Shown piece by piece: positions 38,949 through 45,305 of a DNA stretch of 64,000 nucleotides. The notes under the pieces were generated by a model, which saw nothing but the letters and a program-made list of their open reading frames with translations, was not told the DNA's origin and searched no databases. Source of the DNA: Pseudomonas silvicola (lineage in GTDB: Bacteria; Pseudomonadota; Gammaproteobacteria; Pseudomonadales; Pseudomonadaceae). Location: the NCBI RefSeq assembly GCF_026651855.1, contig NZ_CP093280.1:1652001-1716000 (forward strand), written 5' to 3'. Numbering within the stretch: the first letter of the stretch is position 1; every line of letters begins with the position of its first letter. The position numbers and the translations under genes are program-made.

Positions 38949-39764
38949 ATGACGCCGCGTACCTGTACTACCGCCCTGTTCCTCAGCGCCTTGCTGACGT
39001 TGCCGACCGCCCGCGGCGACAACCCCGTCAGCCTTGATACCCCCATCGGCGGCTGGCGCAGCGCTACCCCGGAAGGCGAGCACTTTCGCCAGACCGTCAA
39101 TTACCCGGCCTCCTCGGTGAACACCCCCGCCGACCAGGCCGACACGGCGCGCATCATGGGGGCCATCAAGGGCATGCCCAAAAGTGCGGACCAGCCTGGC
39201 AAAGTCATCGTCAACGGCGTCGCCATGCCGCTGAAACTCGACGGCAACGGCCACTTCGACCGCCCGTTCTCGTTCCCCAGCGGCACCAACAGCGTTGAAA
39301 TCCGCAGCCCTGACGGCCAGCAGAAACGCCGCGTGCAGTTCCTCAACACCGGCAGCGCCAGCCCCGCCAAACTGCGCATCCTGCTGTCATGGGACAGCGA
39401 CAACACCGACCTGGACTTGCACGTCATCACCCCTGACGGCGCACACATCTGGTACGGCGACCGCACCGCCCCCAACGGCGCGGCACTGGACGTGGACGTC
39501 ACCACCGGCTACGGCCCGGAGATCTTCGCCATGCCCGCGCCGCAAAAGGGCCAGTACCTCATCTACGTCAACTACTTCGGGGGCGGTTACCGCAGCGATG
39601 GCGACGACAGCGGCGGCCAGGCAAACCCGGTCAAGCCCCTGACCACCGCACAGATCACCCTCATCACCGAGGAGGGAACCCCCAGCGAAAAAATGGAAAC
39701 CTTCCTGGTCCCCATGCGCGCCCCGGGCGAGCTGACGCTGGTGCACAGGTTCAGTTACCCCTGA
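38949..39764 (+). CDS. magF: MagF-like second DUF2135 protein
   Basis: A 271-residue exported protein paralogous to the first gene of the operon: LDTPIGGWRSAT, GKVIVNGVAMPLKLDGNGHF, LLSWDSDNTDLDLHVITPDG, GPEIFAMPAPQKGQYLIYVNYFGG. Signal peptide MTPRTCTTALFLSALLTLPTARG. It begins three bases after the DUF2300 stop, so it is the sixth gene of the operon. The two DUF2135 proteins probably contact the same complex; their function is unknown. Confidence 0.85.
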   Translation: MTPRTCTTALFLSALLTLPTARGDNPVSLDTPIGGWRSATPEGEHFRQTVNYPASSVNTPADQADTARIMGAIKGMPKSADQPGKVIVNGVAMPLKLDGNGHFDRPFSFPSGTNSVEIRSPDGQQKRRVQFLNTGSASPAKLRILLSWDSDNTDLDLHVITPDGAHIWYGDRTAPNGAALDVDVTTGYGPEIFAMPAPQKGQYLIYVNYFGGGYRSDGDDSGGQANPVKPLTTAQITLITEEGTPSEKMETFLVPMRAPGELTLVHRFSYP

Positions 39765-39793
39765 GCCCGCTGACCGCCTGTAGCGGTGGGATT

Positions 39794-39813
39794 GTGGGAG
39801 CCCGGCTTGCCAG
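39794..39813 (+). repeat. Degenerate REP-like half element
   Basis: GTGGGAGCCCGGCTTGCCAG resembles one arm of the GTGGGAGCGGGCTTGCC intergenic repeats common in the P. putida group. The partner arm is not clear. It lies just after the mag operon. Confidence 0.35.
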
Positions 39814-39902
39814 TGAAAAGGGCGGGGTGGTCCGCCCGGAGCAATGCGGCGCTGCCTGGTCGCGTATGGGAGCCCCCCGGAAACGGGAGCTTGGGCGCTG
39901 GT

Positions 39903-39938
39903 ACCGTACAAGTAACCGTACAAGTAACCGTACAAGTA
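39903..39938 (+). repeat. Three tandem 12-bp repeats upstream of the Fic gene
   Basis: ACCGTACAAGTA occurs three times head to tail without a gap, ending 22 bases before the Fic ATG at 39961. Each unit contains the half-palindrome GTAC. A further GGTGTACC follows at 39943–39950. The spacing (about one helical turn plus) suits cooperative binding of a regulator on one DNA face. There are no spacers, so it is not CRISPR. Confidence 0.85.
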
Positions 39939-39960
39939 GATCGGTGTACCATTGCGGCTA

Positions 39961-41025
39961 ATGACGCCCCATTCACCTTCAACTGACCTGCCGGAAAGCC
40001 CATTGAATCGTTACCAGCCGCCCCTGACCCTCACTACACGCATGCTCGCTCTGGTGGCAGAAATCAGTGAGCAGGTTGGCCGTCTCTCGGAACGCCGTGA
40101 AGCCGAACTCACCCCGCAATTGCGGCGCGGCAACCGCATCCGAACGATTCAGGCTTCGCTGGCCATTGAAAACAACACCCTGAGCCTCGAACAGGTCACC
40201 GCCGTGCTCGACGGCAAGCGAGTACTCGGGTTGCCCCGCGAAATCCAGGAAGTACGCAACGCGTTCACGACCTATGAGGCCATGCCGACTTTCCGCCCAG
40301 ACTCTCGAGCGCATTTGCTGCAGGCGCACAGGACGCTGATGTTCGGTCTGCTGGACGACGCAGGTGAGTTCCGTGGTGGCGGTGTAGGCATTTACCGAGG
40401 GGATCGCCTTGTACATATGGCGCCTCCTGCCAGCCGTGTCGCTACGCTGGTTGACTCGCTGTTGCAGTGGGCGGGCTCAACCGAGCTGCATCCACTGATC
40501 GCGAGTTGCGTGTTCCATTACGAGTTCGAGTTCATCCACCCGTTCGCCGATGGCAATGGCCGAATGGGGCGTCTCTGGCAGACCTTGCTGCTCAGCCAAT
40601 GGCGCCCCGTGCTCGCTTGGTTGCCAGTAGAGACCGTGATACGCGACCAGCAGGATGCCTACTACGCGGCACTCTCGCGGGCCGATCAGTTGGGTGAGGC
40701 AACGCCCTTCGTCGAGTTCATGCTGAGTGCCTTGCAGCAGGCTTTGCTGGATGCAGGTAGCACTGATGACCACAGCACCGAGCCATTGAGCGACCAGGTT
40801 GCAAGCCTGTTGCGGTGCTTAAGCCACCGTCAGGCGATGAGAGCTGCGGAGTTGATGGACAGTTTGGGAATTTCCCACCGTGCCACCTTCCGTGAAAACT
40901 ACCTAAATCCCGCGCTTGCCCAGGGGTTGGTCGAGATGACTCATCCTGATTCACCGCGCAGTCCTGCACAGAAATACCAAATTAGCCAGAAGGGCGCCGA
41001 TTGGGTCGCCTCGACAGCGGGCTGA
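39961..41025 (+). CDS. Fic family protein (AMPylator-type), class II with inhibitory helix
   Basis: A 354-residue protein with an N-terminal helical domain, an inhibitory motif SLAIEN (Ser66–Asn71, the S/T-xxx-E-G/N pattern), and the complete Fic active site HPFADGNGRMGR (His193–Arg204). A C-terminal winged-helix-like tail follows (QAMRAAELMDSLGISHRATFRENYL). Fic enzymes usually transfer AMP from ATP to a hydroxyl on a target; the intact Glu70 suggests self-inhibition. Start 39961 is chosen over a TTG at 39952. No separate antitoxin gene is adjacent. Confidence 0.9.
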   Translation: MTPHSPSTDLPESPLNRYQPPLTLTTRMLALVAEISEQVGRLSERREAELTPQLRRGNRIRTIQASLAIENNTLSLEQVTAVLDGKRVLGLPREIQEVRNAFTTYEAMPTFRPDSRAHLLQAHRTLMFGLLDDAGEFRGGGVGIYRGDRLVHMAPPASRVATLVDSLLQWAGSTELHPLIASCVFHYEFEFIHPFADGNGRMGRLWQTLLLSQWRPVLAWLPVETVIRDQQDAYYAALSRADQLGEATPFVEFMLSALQQALLDAGSTDDHSTEPLSDQVASLLRCLSHRQAMRAAELMDSLGISHRATFRENYLNPALAQGLVEMTHPDSPRSPAQKYQISQKGADWVASTAG

Positions 41026-41037
41026 TCAGGTTGCCCC

Positions 41038-41910
41038 TCAGTCATACAACCAAGGCTTCAATGCCTGCAGGTTTTTCACCACGATCTGCTGTGCCTCCGG
41101 CTTGGGGTTCAGGTTCTTCGGGTCCAGCTGATAGCGCTGCAGCACATATTTCACCAGCGCCCGACGGCTGGGTACCAGCAATTGCCCGTCGACCATGCCG
41201 AAGTCCGTCTCGATGATCGCCTTCTGCACCGGTTCCAGGCGCGGGTCCGGTGTGATGACCACATCAATGTCCGTGTTCCAGTCCACGTCGGCAGCGCTGC
41301 CGTTGTCCGACAGGCCGAGCAACTCCGGTTCGCCACGCAGTCGGCTCAGCACAAAGTCGCGATACTGGCCGTTCTTCTCGCAGTACGCCCGCACATGCCA
41401 GCGCATGCCGGTATACACCAGGGTGTGCGGCGCAATCAGCCGGACCTCGGCTTGCGGCGTGTTCAGTGACACATACTCGGTCTCCAGCCGCAGCCCCTCG
41501 CGGCACGCCTTCAACAAAGGCCGCAGTACCTCCGGACGAATCGGCCGGTCAGGTACTTCCAGTACCCGCGTGTGGGCATAGGCCAGCGCGAGCCCTTCGA
41601 TATGGTCCTGGCGTTCATTGTTCTGATACAGCAGGTGCAGGTAGGCGCTGGCGCTGTTCTCGATGAACCGCGGCGCGAACACGGAGGTAGGCACGTAGCC
41701 TTTTATTTGTTTGTCATATGTAAGGTTTTCAGGCGCATGCTCGTTGATGTACGTGTTGATGTCCTTGGAGGCCTGCTGACGGCTGATGCCGAAGCTCTGG
41801 ATCAAGTGCCCCGTGGTCAGCCGGCCTTCCCACCAGGCGACGGTCTCGATCAAACGATAGCGAAGTGCCAGATCCCAGCGGACCTGTTCGATTTCCTGCA
41901 AGCGTTTCAT
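41038..41910 (-). CDS. WYL-domain transcriptional regulator (BrxR/CapW-like)
   Basis: A 290-residue protein with an N-terminal winged helix (LTTGHLIQSFGISRQQASKDINTYI, about 31–55), a WYL domain (about 130–195, with LVYTGMRWHVRAYCEKNGQ and FVLSRLRG), and a C-terminal WCX-like region ending LQALKPWLYD. Size and three-part layout match BrxR/CapW proteins, which repress phage-defence operons and sense nucleic acid or nucleotide ligands through WYL. It is divergent from the small membrane protein/ADP-ribosylglycohydrolase pair with an inverted repeat between. It converges on the Fic gene. Confidence 0.88.
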   Translation of the reverse strand: MKRLQEIEQVRWDLALRYRLIETVAWWEGRLTTGHLIQSFGISRQQASKDINTYINEHAPENLTYDKQIKGYVPTSVFAPRFIENSASAYLHLLYQNNERQDHIEGLALAYAHTRVLEVPDRPIRPEVLRPLLKACREGLRLETEYVSLNTPQAEVRLIAPHTLVYTGMRWHVRAYCEKNGQYRDFVLSRLRGEPELLGLSDNGSAADVDWNTDIDVVITPDPRLEPVQKAIIETDFGMVDGQLLVPSRRALVKYVLQRYQLDPKNLNPKPEAQQIVVKNLQALKPWLYD

Positions 41911-41946
41911 CGGTGCTCCATGTGTGCAAATTGTTTACCTGTATAA

Positions 41947-41961
41947 GTCTACATTCTAGAC
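41947..41961. promoter_or_regulatory. Inverted-repeat operator between WYL regulator and small membrane gene
   Basis: GTCTA-CATTC-TAGAC, a perfect 5-5-5 inverted repeat, is flanked by near-matching outer arms GTTTAC (41933–41938) and GTAAAAC (41966–41972). CCTGT occurs on both sides. The whole 40-base block sits midway between the divergent starts, where an autoregulating WYL repressor would be expected to bind. Confidence 0.6.
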
Positions 41962-42029
41962 CTGTCGTAAAACACTACATATCGTGTGTCTGGCAAAGGC
42001 ATTCCCGGCCTCCAAAAAGGACACCGAAC

Positions 42030-42284
42030 ATGAGTATTTCAGAGCTGGTATCGACAGGCGCCATCGCCCTTATCGCTGCGATCCTGCTGATCCTCCTGAT
42101 GCAATACCTGCGGCTGCGCGAACTCTGGGAACTGGCGCGCGACTGCCAAAAGGGTGCACGCTGGGCACGCATCCATGCCATGGAAAACCGCGAACTACGC
42201 CGCACCCTGCGCGCTGAAAAGGCCCGTATCATTGAACTCAAGCAAGCACTGGCCCGCCTGCAGCACACCGAACTGGCATCGTAA
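42030..42284 (+). CDS. Small membrane protein with coiled-coil tail, 84 aa
   Basis: Not recognised as a named family. One N-terminal helix (ALIAAILLILLMQYL, about 12–26) is followed by a charged, heptad-like tail (ENRELRRTLRAEKARIIELKQALARLQ, about 52–78), suggesting a membrane-anchored coiled coil facing the cytoplasm. AAAAAGGA lies seven or so bases upstream of the ATG. The stop codon merges with the AAGGAG of the ADP-ribosylglycohydrolase gene, so the two are one operon, divergent from the WYL regulator. Confidence 0.72.
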   Translation: MSISELVSTGAIALIAAILLILLMQYLRLRELWELARDCQKGARWARIHAMENRELRRTLRAEKARIIELKQALARLQHTELAS

Positions 42285-42294
42285 GGAGACCGCC

Positions 42295-43347
42295 ATGAAC
42301 CGACTCGACCGCATCAAGGGCTGCCTGCTGGGGGGCGCCGTTGGCGACGCCCTGGGTGCCCCCGTGGAGTTCCTCGAGTGGCCGGTGATCGAAGCCCGCT
42401 ACGGCCGACGCGGCATCATCGACTTCACCCCGGCCTACGGCCGTATCGGCGCCATCACCGACGACACGCAAATGATGCTCTTCACCGCCGAAGGCTTGCT
42501 GCGCGCTTACGTACGCGGCAGTTCCCGGGGCATCTGTCACGTGCCCGGCGTCATACACCACGCCCTGCTGCGCTGGCTGGTCACCCAGAACGAACAGCCG
42601 GCCACGCACGTGAGCCAGGACGGTTGGCTCATCAGCGAAAGAGCGCTCTGGGCTCGCCGCGCCCCTGGCACTACCTGCATCAGCGCCCTGAAGGCCAGCA
42701 AGCGACTGGGCATTCCCGCCCAGAACAACAGCAAAGGCTGCGGCGCGCTGATGCGCTCCGCACCCTGCGCCTTCTTCGCCAACGCCTTCGAGTGGGCCAG
42801 CGAAGCCGGTCAACTTACCCACGGCCATCCCAGCGGCTACCTGGCTGCCGGCCTGTTCGCCGACATCCTGCAACGCATGGCCGACCACGGCGCGGGCCTG
42901 GAAAGAGCCGTGGTCGACAGCCTGGCCACACATGGCGACAAACCCGGCATGCATGAAGTGCGTGAGCTGCTGGAGCGCGTATTGTTTTTCGTTCGCGAGG
43001 GCTACCGGCCCACCCCCGAGCGCATCAGTGAACTGGGCGCCGGCTGGGTCGCCGAAGAGGCGCTGGCCATTGGCGTGTGGTGCGCATTGATGGCTGACAA
43101 CCTGGAGGACGGCATCATCCTGGCAGTGAACCACAGCGGTGACAGCGACAGCACCGGGCTGGTGGCGGGGCACCTGCTGGGCATCGAGTACGGCGCGGCG
43201 GCCATACCGGCACGCTGGTTTCAGCGGCTGGAGCTGCGTGCGGTGATCGAGCGGGTGGCGGAAGACATCGAGCGTGTGCCGCGCGATTACTGCGGGTATG
43301 GCGGCGAGGACGATGAGTGGATCGAGTTGGCGTATCCCGGGGGTTGA
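42295..43347 (+). CDS. ADP-ribosylglycohydrolase (DraG/ARH family)
   Basis: A 350-residue hydrolase with the complete family signature: GCLLGGAVGDALGAPVEF at residues 10–26, ITDDTQMMLF (metal ligands Thr/Asp/Asp, 55–57), GCGALMRSAP (148–157) and HSGDSDSTG (280–288) with the second metal site. Such enzymes remove ADP-ribose from proteins, nucleic acids or small molecules using two magnesium ions. AAGGAG six bases upstream overlaps the end of the small membrane protein gene. No ADP-ribosyltransferase is seen nearby, so the substrate is open. Confidence 0.92.
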   Translation: MNRLDRIKGCLLGGAVGDALGAPVEFLEWPVIEARYGRRGIIDFTPAYGRIGAITDDTQMMLFTAEGLLRAYVRGSSRGICHVPGVIHHALLRWLVTQNEQPATHVSQDGWLISERALWARRAPGTTCISALKASKRLGIPAQNNSKGCGALMRSAPCAFFANAFEWASEAGQLTHGHPSGYLAAGLFADILQRMADHGAGLERAVVDSLATHGDKPGMHEVRELLERVLFFVREGYRPTPERISELGAGWVAEEALAIGVWCALMADNLEDGIILAVNHSGDSDSTGLVAGHLLGIEYGAAAIPARWFQRLELRAVIERVAEDIERVPRDYCGYGGEDDEWIELAYPGG

Positions 43348-43421
43348 GCTCGGGCGAGGACGGATACCGCGACATGCGGAATGTAACTACAGGTATTCAT
43401 TCTATTTTTTTGCTTTCGAGC

Positions 43422-43450
43422 TTGACGCCAAGCGCGTAAAAACGTCTAAT
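43422..43450 (+). promoter_or_regulatory. Sigma70 promoter of tRNA-Phe
   Basis: TTGACG (43422–43427), a 17-base spacer and TCTAAT (43445–43450), followed by a G/C-rich discriminator CCCGCCTGCG before the tRNA. The G/C-rich discriminator is typical of stringently controlled stable-RNA promoters. Confidence 0.8.
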
Positions 43451-43460
43451 CCCGCCTGCG

Positions 43461-43536
43461 GCCCAGATAGCTCAGTCGGTAGAGCAGGGGATTGAAAATC
43501 CCCGTGTCGGCGGTTCGATTCCGTCTCTGGGCACCA
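43461..43536 (+). tRNA. tRNA-Phe (anticodon GAA)
   Basis: A 76-base cloverleaf with encoded CCA. The acceptor stem GCCCAGA / TCTGGGC pairs perfectly, the D arm is GCTC…GAGC, the anticodon stem-loop is GGGGA-TTGAAAA-TCCCC, and the T arm is GGCGG-TTCGATT-CCGTC. Anticodon GAA reads Phe codons. Confidence 0.97.
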
Positions 43537-43543
43537 CACATTG

Positions 43544-43578
43544 AAAAACCCCTGAATCGCAAGGTTCAGGGGTTTTTT
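43544..43578 (+). terminator. Intrinsic terminator of tRNA-Phe
   Basis: AAAACCCCTGAA / TTCAGGGGTTTT stem with a short loop (TCGCAAGG region) and a run of six T residues, beginning eight bases after the tRNA CCA. Confidence 0.92.
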
Positions 43579-43670
43579 CGTTTCGGTGCTGATGGCGAAT
43601 AAGTCTGCGACGCAGGCTCTGTACGAAAATTCTTGTTTCGGGCCACAGAGACCCCTGATACGACAGGCAT

Positions 43671-43695
43671 TAAAAAGCCGGCTTGTGGCCGGCTT
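43671..43695 (-). terminator. Intrinsic terminator downstream of the repressor unit
   Basis: AAGCCGGC / GCCGGCTT with a 5-base loop. On the minus strand it is followed by a T-run (CTTTTTAATG), so it serves transcripts arriving from the repressor gene and its small coupled ORF. Confidence 0.8.
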
Positions 43696-43774
43696 CTCGG
43701 GGACGGCGTTGGTCTATTTTTGGTAGACCGCCACCGCCTTCAAAAATGTAGAACCAATGACCTTGCGTCACCGG

Positions 43775-43894
43775 TTAGCCAGGCCGCGATGTACACCGCC
43801 CAACTGGGCAAGCCGGCTGCCTGTGCAGCACGCCTTGCGAAAACGTGCGGCAAGAATAGCGGCATTGCCGGCAAATGCCCAGCACAAATGTCAT
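43775..43894 (-). CDS. Candidate 39-aa cysteine-rich ORF coupled to the repressor
   Basis: ATG overlaps the repressor stop in an ATGA arrangement and follows GAGAAGGA. The predicted peptide has five cysteines, several in a CRQCRYSC-like stretch, and ends before the minus-strand terminator at 43671–43695. There is no family similarity I recognise. The coding call rests on position only and may be chance. Confidence 0.35.
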   Translation of the reverse strand: MTFVLGICRQCRYSCRTFSQGVLHRQPACPVGRCTSRPG

Positions 43895-44619
43895 TCCTTC
43901 TCATCCGGCCGGCGGGTTTGAAGGGTCGACCACCAGAATACCCAGCCCAGTACTTCTATCGCATCCGTGGCACTGGCCAGTTCATCGCTGAACTGCGACA
44001 GGTTGTGCGGGCGCAGGCGCGTGGCGTCGCAGGTCATGGGGTAGAGGGTGCGGATCGCCAGGTCGCCGCCGTGCAATACGGCATAGAGATGGCCGGGCTG
44101 ATACAGGGTGTGGCTGCGGTCGATGGCCAAGGCGGCGCCAGGCTGGATGCGGGGGGCCTGGCTGGTGTCGGGCATGATCAGGGCGGCGCAGTGGTCGGGG
44201 TATATGCACAGGCTGTCGATGGCTTCCCGGGGCAGGCGCAGGTAGCGGTCGTCGACGGCGATGAGCTGTTGGTTAAGGGGCCGATGGAACGGGATGAGGA
44301 CATCCTCCAGGGTGCTGGCGGCCAGAGCGGTAGGGCTGGGGGCAGGGTGCAGGAGGTTGTCCTGGTCGATGAACTGGTCTTGGGGGTCGAGGGGTGGGGA
44401 AGGCGGGGGGAAGCGGTATTTGGGGCCCATGCCGGTGCGCAGCCAGTGGGTATGGACGCACAGCAGGCCGGCGATGTCGTCGAGGCGGGCAATGGGGACG
44501 CCGCGGCGGATCCAGTTGTTGACGTGCTGGGGGAGGATGTTGCGGTGCAGGGCCAGGTCGGACGGGGACAGGTGGCATTCCTGCAGCAGGGTTTTGAGGC
44601 GGTCGCCGGAGGTGATCAT
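43891..44619 (-). CDS. CI/LexA-like phage-type repressor with degenerate S24 domain
   Basis: A 242-residue regulator. An N-terminal HTH (DRLKTLLQECHLSPSDLALHRNILPQHVNNWIRRGVP) is followed by a Pro-rich linker and a C-terminal LexA/CI-type beta domain (ALIMPDTSQAPRIQPGAALAIDRS…GHLYAVLHGGDLAIRTLYP). In self-cleaving repressors the Ser-Met and Lys of the dyad sit at DTS and AIR; the Lys is replaced here, so autocleavage is unlikely. It has an unusually Pro- and Thr-rich composition and strong strand G/C skew. No phage structural genes are adjacent. Confidence 0.8.
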   Translation of the reverse strand: MITSGDRLKTLLQECHLSPSDLALHRNILPQHVNNWIRRGVPIARLDDIAGLLCVHTHWLRTGMGPKYRFPPPSPPLDPQDQFIDQDNLLHPAPSPTALAASTLEDVLIPFHRPLNQQLIAVDDRYLRLPREAIDSLCIYPDHCAALIMPDTSQAPRIQPGAALAIDRSHTLYQPGHLYAVLHGGDLAIRTLYPMTCDATRLRPHNLSQFSDELASATDAIEVLGWVFWWSTLQTRRPDEKE

Positions 44620-44777: not shown

Positions 44778-45305
44778 TTAGCCTTTGAAGGCAGCGACCG
44801 ACTTGGTGATTTCGGCACGGGCGGCGTCTGCGTCGCCCCAACCTTCGATCTTGACCCACTTGCCTTTTTCGAGGTCTTTGTAGTTCTCGAAGAAGTGCTT
44901 GATCTGTTCCAGCAGCAGGGCTGGCAGGTCGGTGTATTCCTTCACGTCGACGTACAGTTGCGACAGTTTGTCGTGCGGTACGGCGATGACCTTGGCGTCG
45001 CCGCCGCCGTCGTCGGTCATGTGCAGGATGCCGACCGGACGGGCGCGGATCACCGAGCCAGGGGCTACTGGGTACGGGGTGACGACCAGCACGTCCAGGG
45101 GATCACCGTCGTCGGCCAGGGTGTTAGGGATGAAGCCATAGTTGGCCGGGTAGAACATTGGGGTGGCCATGAAACGATCAACGAACAGGGTGTCGCTGTC
45201 CTTGTCGATTTCGTATTTGATCGGCGCGTGGTTGGCCGGAATCTCGATGGCGACGTAGATGTCGTTCGGCAGGTCTTTGCCAGCCGGAATCTTGCTGTAG
45301 CTCAT
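44778..45305 (-). CDS. ppa: Inorganic pyrophosphatase (family I)
   Basis: Hydrolyses pyrophosphate, pulling biosynthetic reactions forward. The 175-residue protein shows [18 protein letters not shown], the signature [15 protein letters not shown] with the three metal-binding Asp residues, and [17 protein letters not shown]. Length and sequence are typical of the hexameric bacterial enzyme. Monocistronic, with its own terminator. Confidence 0.97.

Follow-up and report, generated by a model that had tools for sequence, protein, structure and literature searches.

What holds together the run of genes that, in Pseudomonas silvicola, encodes a Fic enzyme, a WYL-domain regulator (WYL), a small protein of 84 residues (SP84) and an ADP-ribosylglycohydrolase (DraG) next to a phenylalanine tRNA gene (tRNA-Phe), and what might it do? 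We analysed a stretch of 64,000 nucleotides (contig NZ_CP093280.1, positions 1,652,001 to 1,716,000; hereafter the window), in which all five features were found, intact, where the original prediction, a model's reading of the letters alone, had placed them (Table 1). The unit that emerged consists of a BrxR-family WYL, a conserved divergent promoter region, SP84 and DraG. Regulator, operator and SP84 very probably act as a control cassette whose cargo is exchangeable and mostly of defence type.

A unit of WYL, SP84 and DraG

Gene content was followed through a Pseudomonas set of 149 genomes (G-numbers, the window's own genome included as G000) and through a scan of GTDB species genomes, from which 80 of 103 confirmed DraG loci were kept (L-numbers denote loci). 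DraG orthologues of at least 57% identity occur in 16 of the 149 genomes, own included, and the same divergent order of WYL, SP84 and DraG surrounds most of them. Across the 80 loci, WYL lies divergently and a short way upstream of DraG in 40, which we count as linked; in L103, L121, L128 and L155 its match is incomplete or lies farther away. SP84 stands between the two genes in 36 of the 40, and in 32 of the 40 the starts of WYL and DraG are 383-390 bp apart. In the window, SP84 ends 10 bp before DraG begins.

Fic behaves differently. It was beside DraG at none of the 80 loci, one 30% partial match (L173) being disregarded, and in the three Fic-bearing relatives that also have a DraG orthologue (G056, G068 and G069) the two genes lie on different contigs. 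Fic matches at E 1e-60 or better occur in 26 of the 149 genomes, own included, at other places, and none of the 11 Fic relatives inspected has WYL, SP84 or DraG beside it. Because WYL, SP84 and DraG are linked to one another while Fic is missing from all 80 loci and sits elsewhere in relatives, we draw the unit without it. The original prediction had taken the four genes as one cassette, to be checked for conservation across Pseudomonas; conservation holds for WYL, SP84 and DraG, as a horizontally moving set, and fails for Fic. The Fic translation itself contains SLAIEN and HPFADGNGRMGR. Directly upstream of Fic, at 39903-39938, stand three perfect tandem copies of ACCGTACAAGTA; these 12-bp repeats were considered as an operator of the unit and dropped, being missing upstream of the 11 Fic relatives.

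The assignment of the regulator to the BrxR/CapW type was borne out. WYL is homologous to BrxR and CapW structures over almost its full length: the best solved relative is BrxR 7t8k (E 1.3e-65, residues 12-262; 43% identity over 249 amino acids, with the SRQQ motif retained), followed by the CapW structures 7tb5 (1.3e-43) and 7tb6 (2.5e-42; residues 9-288). The 119-bp gap between WYL and SP84 could be aligned in 31 loci. Across 27 relatives, a count that excludes three distant loci, identity of its 57-bp core to the window averages 89% and never falls below 77%; third codon positions of WYL are 56% identical in the same comparison. Distant members carry a perfect 18-base palindrome, TTTACCTGTACAGGTAAA, in their core. 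Conserved core and palindrome look as a site for a dimeric regulator would, and in Acinetobacter the pseudo-palindrome bound by BrxR overlaps with a promoter predicted there (PMC9122589). A 34-base part of the core has one match in the own genome at up to three mismatches. A scan of 39700-43900 returned no sigma-70-type consensus promoter, and a DNA hairpin in the promoter region was rejected, its fold z-score of -0.95 being ordinary.

Cargo exchange behind WYL and SP84

The WYL subfamily is commoner than DraG. At E 1e-70 or better (70-84% identity in relatives) it was found at 45 places in 34 of the 149 genomes, own included, against 16 genomes with DraG. We examined 45 copies, namely 44 of these places plus the copy in G051, a fragment in G138 being excluded. 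DraG or a remnant of it accompanies 16 copies. Of the remaining 29, 12 lie within 9 kb of a gene that was recognised as defence-type or as a GTPase gene, namely dynamin-like genes (L220, L225, L227, L230 and L232), a GTPase pair (L226), JukA, with ZorB-ZorA encoded on the opposite strand (L229), an HNH nuclease (at the second WYL of L227), a BnzA-like (Bunzi) protein (L221), a type I methyltransferase (L236), DrmD of DISARM (L241) and a DruE-like helicase (L248). Eight of ten hand-picked other cargo proteins matched PADLOC models, as BnzA, HNH, PDC-M26A, JukA, type I methyltransferase, LeoBC, DruE-like and DrmD.

Exchange is also visible on the WYL tree, built by a quick method from 66 chosen rows, where the DraG label changes 13 times (at least 8 forced) and the SP84 label 5 times (at least 3 forced). 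WYL proteins that are 96-98% identical have DraG as neighbour in one species (L129) but dynamin-like or GTPase genes in a second (L225 and L226). One WYL subclade is mostly without SP84 (L235, L237, L239-L242, L244, L245, L247 and L248) and precedes other large genes, among them those for DrmD (L241) and the DruE-like helicase (L248); SP84 is present in its members L236, L238 and L246.

We compared neighbourhoods within 10 kb between the 40 linked loci and 32 control DraG loci without this WYL. The controls are 32 of the other 40 loci, short contigs and duplicates excluded; 24 of the other 40 are in the DraG tree, and such loci may hold another WYL family nearby (7 of 32). Dynamin-like GTPases (Pfam Dynamin_N, PADLOC LeoBC/LeoA) occur at 21 of the 40 linked loci, at none of the 32 controls and in none of 18 other regions, a comparison that is not fully fair because the queries for these and the other markers were derived from the linked loci; nor are the loci independent of one another. 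Independent scans gave the same picture. Among the neighbour representatives of linked loci that were scanned (128 of 131, three left out for size), 12 matched PADLOC LeoBC and 14 Pfam Dynamin_N; for the 125 control representatives, LeoBC was not among the best 25 of 167 families. The linked loci also hold BREX (5 of 40), ZorAB (4), Mokosh-like (10) and IetA-like (6) genes, and at least one of these five markers is present in 30 of the 40.

Two further gene sets recur among the loci. ZorA/ZorB-like genes with common partners of 318-319 and about 400 amino acids were seen in L098, L099, L115, L129 and L229; because the L099 ZorA is a distant match to PADLOC (6.6e-11), the set is possibly a Zorya subtype without a model. 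In L107, L108, L113, L114, L116, L121 and L131, a trio stands to the left of the unit, made up of a 493-amino-acid protein (its representative without a Pfam or PADLOC match), a large Mokosh-like protein and a 226-amino-acid protein.

What DraG and SP84 may do

The window's DraG scores 226.4 bits against PF03747 (cut-off 26.2), its solved relatives are DraG, Tri1 and ARH, and its AlphaFold model has a mean predicted local distance difference test score (pLDDT) of 96.3. It retains D56, D57, D283 and D285, in TDD and GDxD-type metal motifs, which we take, by DraG/ARH structures, to be the expected two-metal site; S146, R154, T175, H176 and H178 presumably line the ADP-ribose pocket.

By analogy with tested BrxR and CapW relatives, we infer that a WYL dimer, bound at a site in the shared intergenic region, represses both its own gene and the SP84-DraG operon. 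Infection or DNA damage would provide a ligand that ends repression, upon which DraG would be made. The enzyme would most likely strip host proteins or RNA of the ADP-ribose attached by phage ADP-ribosyltransferases, so that host functions recover, and SP84 may anchor either DraG or WYL to the inner membrane. Judged from sequence and context, an anti-phage role of DraG in this genome is probable. For the full explanation, a WYL-SP84 control cassette whose DraG cargo is derepressed by infection or DNA damage and reverses phage ADP-ribosylation, we see even chances, and DraG as an eraser of phage-made ADP-ribosylation is a tentative assignment that we place somewhat below even.

Several observations weigh against the cassette and its proposed role. 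At 17 of the 29 DraG-less WYL copies no defence-type or GTPase gene was recognised, in scans that covered a minority of the genes there, and the dynamin-like genes of L225 and ZorAB of L229 face the opposite way and are unreadable from the WYL-SP84 promoter. None of the five markers is present in 10 of the 40 linked loci; the 32 controls hold IetA-like genes in 4, Mokosh-like genes in 2, BREX in 1 and the second WYL family in 7; and the origin of the marker queries, given above, counts on the same side. The window's own unit stands alone, with no defence-type neighbours. The closest DraG, from gammaproteobacterium L18 (L097; 83% identity, same slot), has no SP84 in the 237 bp upstream of it before the contig ends; because the contigs of L097 and L146 end close to DraG, WYL may lie beyond the end in both. 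DraG also occurs without this WYL, for example in the P. graminis group, and at least one of D56, D57, D283 and D285 is lost in 19 of 41 WYL-linked DraG proteins.

The lost aspartates raise the alternative that DraG is mainly a binder, with SP84 and DraG together as a receptor held at the membrane. Such a receptor would recognise ADP-ribose, or a ligand that carries it, and would signal infection or act as the gate of a defence partner; hydrolysis would be optional. Within the 41, D57 is lost in 13, D285 in 14 and both in 9; aspartate loss among DraG proteins without this WYL amounts to 2 of 24, both from Halomonas. Loss recurs on the tree, with 7 changes, at least 5 of them forced when the site's columns are included and at least 4 when they are left out, in a repeat by a quick method. 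The five presumed pocket residues are invariant in 56 of 56 alignment rows. The median ratio of nonsynonymous to synonymous substitution rates (dN/dS) is 0.136 in the main incomplete-site clade (36 pairs, 9 chosen rows) and 0.090 in complete-site relatives (87 pairs, 14 chosen rows); on these ratios the clade is kept by purifying selection despite its altered centre. Metal-site loss and selection together speak for binding as the role of at least some family members, or for a variant of the enzyme with one metal. SP84, moreover, follows DraG: in 32 DraG-bearing loci its distances track those of DraG (partial r 0.82) and not those of WYL (0.06), and the same holds without the distant clade (0.71 and 0.02). 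However, 22 of the 41 linked rows, the window copy included, keep all four aspartates, one metal ion may remain bound in the others, one linked DraG has N178 (in a 65-row set), and metal and ADP-ribose ligand residues were assigned from DraG/ARH structures. We consider a mainly binding DraG rather unlikely.

SP84 might instead be a membrane-held partner of WYL, a sensor or anti-repressor, unrelated to the cargo genes. The protein has no Pfam family below E 0.1, and neither SP84 nor DraG matches a PADLOC model at E 1. It combines a single hydrophobic stretch near the N-terminus (the most hydrophobic 19-mer begins at residue 6, mean hydropathy 2.75) with a conserved, helix-like C-terminal part, and M1, E55, L56, L60, R61, A62, E63, L70 and Q78 are invariant among 15 homologues; because of its charges, the C-terminal part is suggested to face the cytoplasm. 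SP84 is present in 33 of the 45 WYL copies and stays there without DraG in 18 of the 33, its label changes more rarely than that of DraG on the WYL tree, and it was found at none of the 40 DraG loci that lack this WYL adjoining DraG. Yet SP84 sequences track DraG, not WYL, in DraG-bearing loci, which weakens the idea that SP84 belongs to WYL alone, and 12 of the 45 WYL copies have no SP84, so WYL can do without it. A purely regulatory SP84 is unlikely in our judgement. A bolder combination is distinctly speculative: across Pseudomonas, proteins of the SP84 type would link BrxR-type repressors to the inner membrane, as a membrane-to-promoter switch in command of exchangeable defence cargo, and DraG would be a cargo that binds ADP-ribosylated ligands; if it were true, ligand binding would let nearly half of the WYL-linked DraG proteins drop metal-site residues under selection.

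Two readings deny DraG any defence role of its own. It could be a costly or neutral passenger of mobile islands, heading for loss: of the 16 WYL-linked copies in the 149 genomes, 4 are broken (G051, G059, G069 and G148; DraG in L039 and L041 is counted as intact although the gene caller misses both), and metal-site residues are lost. Median dN/dS values of 0.09-0.14 within clades and the conserved spacing argue otherwise, and make this very unlikely. If DraG were instead a housekeeping hydrolase of protein ADP-ribose, with WYL adjusting it to metabolism, this would fit the chromosomal DraG copies without this WYL, such as those of the P. graminis group, but orthologues in just 16 of 149 genomes and the defence-type neighbourhoods leave that reading hardly probable. 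The four-gene nucleotide-modification system of the original prediction is extremely improbable: Fic adjoins the unit in the window, but the conserved set is refuted by the 80 loci and by Fic's places elsewhere, and modification of nucleotides found no support, DraG-family enzymes being removers of ADP-ribose.

Two side observations concern DraG proteins outside the unit. In the P. graminis group (L117-L120 and L125), DraG without this WYL adjoins a 231-amino-acid protein, whose L120 copy matches the PADLOC candidate PDC-S63 (5.6e-67). Near DraG relatives in Oceanisphaera, Oceanimonas, Halopseudomonas and a metagenome-assembled genome (L143, L144, L145 and L148) stands a different WYL-like regulator, so that DraG may have become paired with WYL on more than one occasion.

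Chromosomal setting, known relatives and meaning

The unit occupies a variable slot between what we take to be the mag operon (Pfam DUF2138, DUF1175, DUF2300 and DUF2135 in the window) and an S24-type repressor gene followed by a gene that we presume to be ppa.

Table 1. Features of the locus, in window coordinates.
Feature	Coordinates	Strand	Details
Fic enzyme	39961-41025	+	354 aa; PF02661 8e-19, PF21247; outside unit
WYL regulator, BrxR/CapW family, wHTH-WYL-WCX layout	41038-41910	-	290 aa; PF13280 2.8e-13
Divergent promoter/operator region (putative)	41911-42029		119 bp; core 41930-41986
SP84, small membrane/coiled-coil protein	42030-42284	+	84 aa
DraG, ADP-ribosylglycohydrolase	42295-43347	+	350 aa; PF03747 7.6e-67
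Extra tRNA-Phe, within variable stretch	43461-43536	+	second copy elsewhere in genome
Conserved segment, right border of variable slot	43664-43770		matched in 17 relatives' regions
S24-type repressor, slot flank	43891-44619	-	PF00717
ppa, inorganic pyrophosphatase, backbone flank	44778-45305	-	84-99% identical in relatives

The empty state of this slot is found in G021 (L079), where the end of the mag operon is followed by 57 bp, the conserved segment, the S24 repressor gene and ppa; in the window, 3.9 kb with Fic, WYL, SP84, DraG and tRNA-Phe separate the two sides. We fetched 17 of the 19 same-genus slots with an S24 gene, drawn from 24 same-genus relatives. The repressor is in all 17 regions and is missing near ppa in 5 of the 24 loci. 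The stretch upstream of S24-ppa varies among the 17 (L079-L094 and L096) and looks like a hot spot; inspection by eye showed integrase-like genes at the slot border of G004 and G006, and G011 has a toxin-antitoxin-like pair. In L220 and L221, WYL-SP84 lies on the S24 side of ppa at a distance of about 7.5 kb, with a dynamin-like pair and a BnzA-like gene respectively; in L222 it is 3.4 kb from ppa, with no recognised cargo and no S24 match. Within the fetched flanks of the 80 DraG loci, ppa is present in 8, against about 0.3 expected by a rough estimate and with loci that are not all independent.

The tRNA gene, which had been described as the unit's neighbour amid backbone genes, proved to be an extra copy. 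A second tRNA-Phe lies at G000:C1:575684 (L095:7685-7760); the 76-base bodies are identical, and the two copies are 83% identical over 156 bp including the upstream flank. The genome that holds both is large beside others in the set, at 8.65 Mb in three contigs with 8% estimated contamination. No tRNA-Phe was found at the slot in the 17 relatives' regions or in L097, nor in sets of 18 and 13 loci. Because the closest DraG shares the slot without it, tRNA-Phe is rejected as the anchor; swapping near this slot, a check that the original prediction had named, is upheld by WYL-SP84 lying near ppa with other cargo.

DraG is identical in P. lactis, P. lactucae and P. palmensis, and the unit was also found on a P. 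veronii plasmid. These observations support a horizontally moving unit of WYL, SP84 and DraG; its neighbourhoods are often of defence type. A phage origin of DraG was considered and set aside: a pattern-limited scan of viral contigs gave no relative, and the best phage record has 37.7% identity.

The nearest published counterparts are ADP-ribosylglycohydrolase (ARG) systems with WYL or Nudix regulators, conflict systems for which reversal of phage ADP-ribosylation was predicted (Iyer et al. 2022, Viruses 14:1977, PMC9503650). Like these, the window pairs an ARG enzyme with WYL. The predicted systems have no linked ADP-ribosyltransferase; in the window, no such family was found among the ten proteins around the unit, and for the neighbours of relatives the view covered the first 25 families of each set. 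The ARG systems commonly include a phosphatase or peptide chaperone, whereas the window's DraG has neither, and neither is among the first 25 of 127 Pfam families in relatives. Here, in addition, a small membrane protein, unmentioned in the text of section 3.8 of that paper, stands between WYL and DraG, WYL and SP84 are also found with cargo other than DraG, and many DraG metal sites are incomplete. BrxR and CapW regulators (Picton 2022, PMC9122601; Luyten 2022, PMC9122589; Blankenchip 2022, PMC9122588) resemble WYL in sequence and in being associated with many defence systems; the unit differs from them in its divergent SP84 with a shared intergenic region and its DraG cargo. Picton et al. 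pointed out that the neighbours of BrxR homologues may include defence systems not yet discovered, and the main text does not contain the string 'ADP-ribos' (PMC9122601). Shield II of P. aeruginosa likewise has a BrxR homologue upstream of the defence locus, but carries a nuclease-active RmuC-domain protein in place of DraG (PMC10270631).

DraG of DraT-DraG and the ADP-ribosylarginine hydrolase Tri1 belong to the same enzyme family, and the window copy has the expected motifs, but it misses the cut-offs of both TIGR02662 (90.5 versus 337.05 bits; none of the ten neighbours is a DraT-like transferase) and NF041672 (71 versus 490 bits). ADP-ribosyl glycohydrolases have also been reported near Brig1 homologues in defence islands (PMC11078745), and PMC11833690 deals with the reversal of RNA ADP-ribosylation, the term 'WYL' being absent from the text consulted. 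In listings of the open-licence PMC literature we found no description of an SP84-type protein, of cargo exchange or of metal-site loss, and no further paper on such a unit. The core unit thus appears to be a variant of the predicted ARG-WYL kind, its membrane protein, cargo exchange and metal-site loss being apparently unpublished.

For Pseudomonas, the locus offers a compact and testable candidate defence unit. It makes testable whether hosts reverse ADP-ribosylation imposed by phages, and why an ADP-ribose hydrolase family repeatedly loses metal-site residues and yet persists. The exchange of cargo suggests that one cassette of regulator, promoter and membrane protein serves several defence types in one genus, and the cassette could therefore be used to find unknown defence genes lying behind it.

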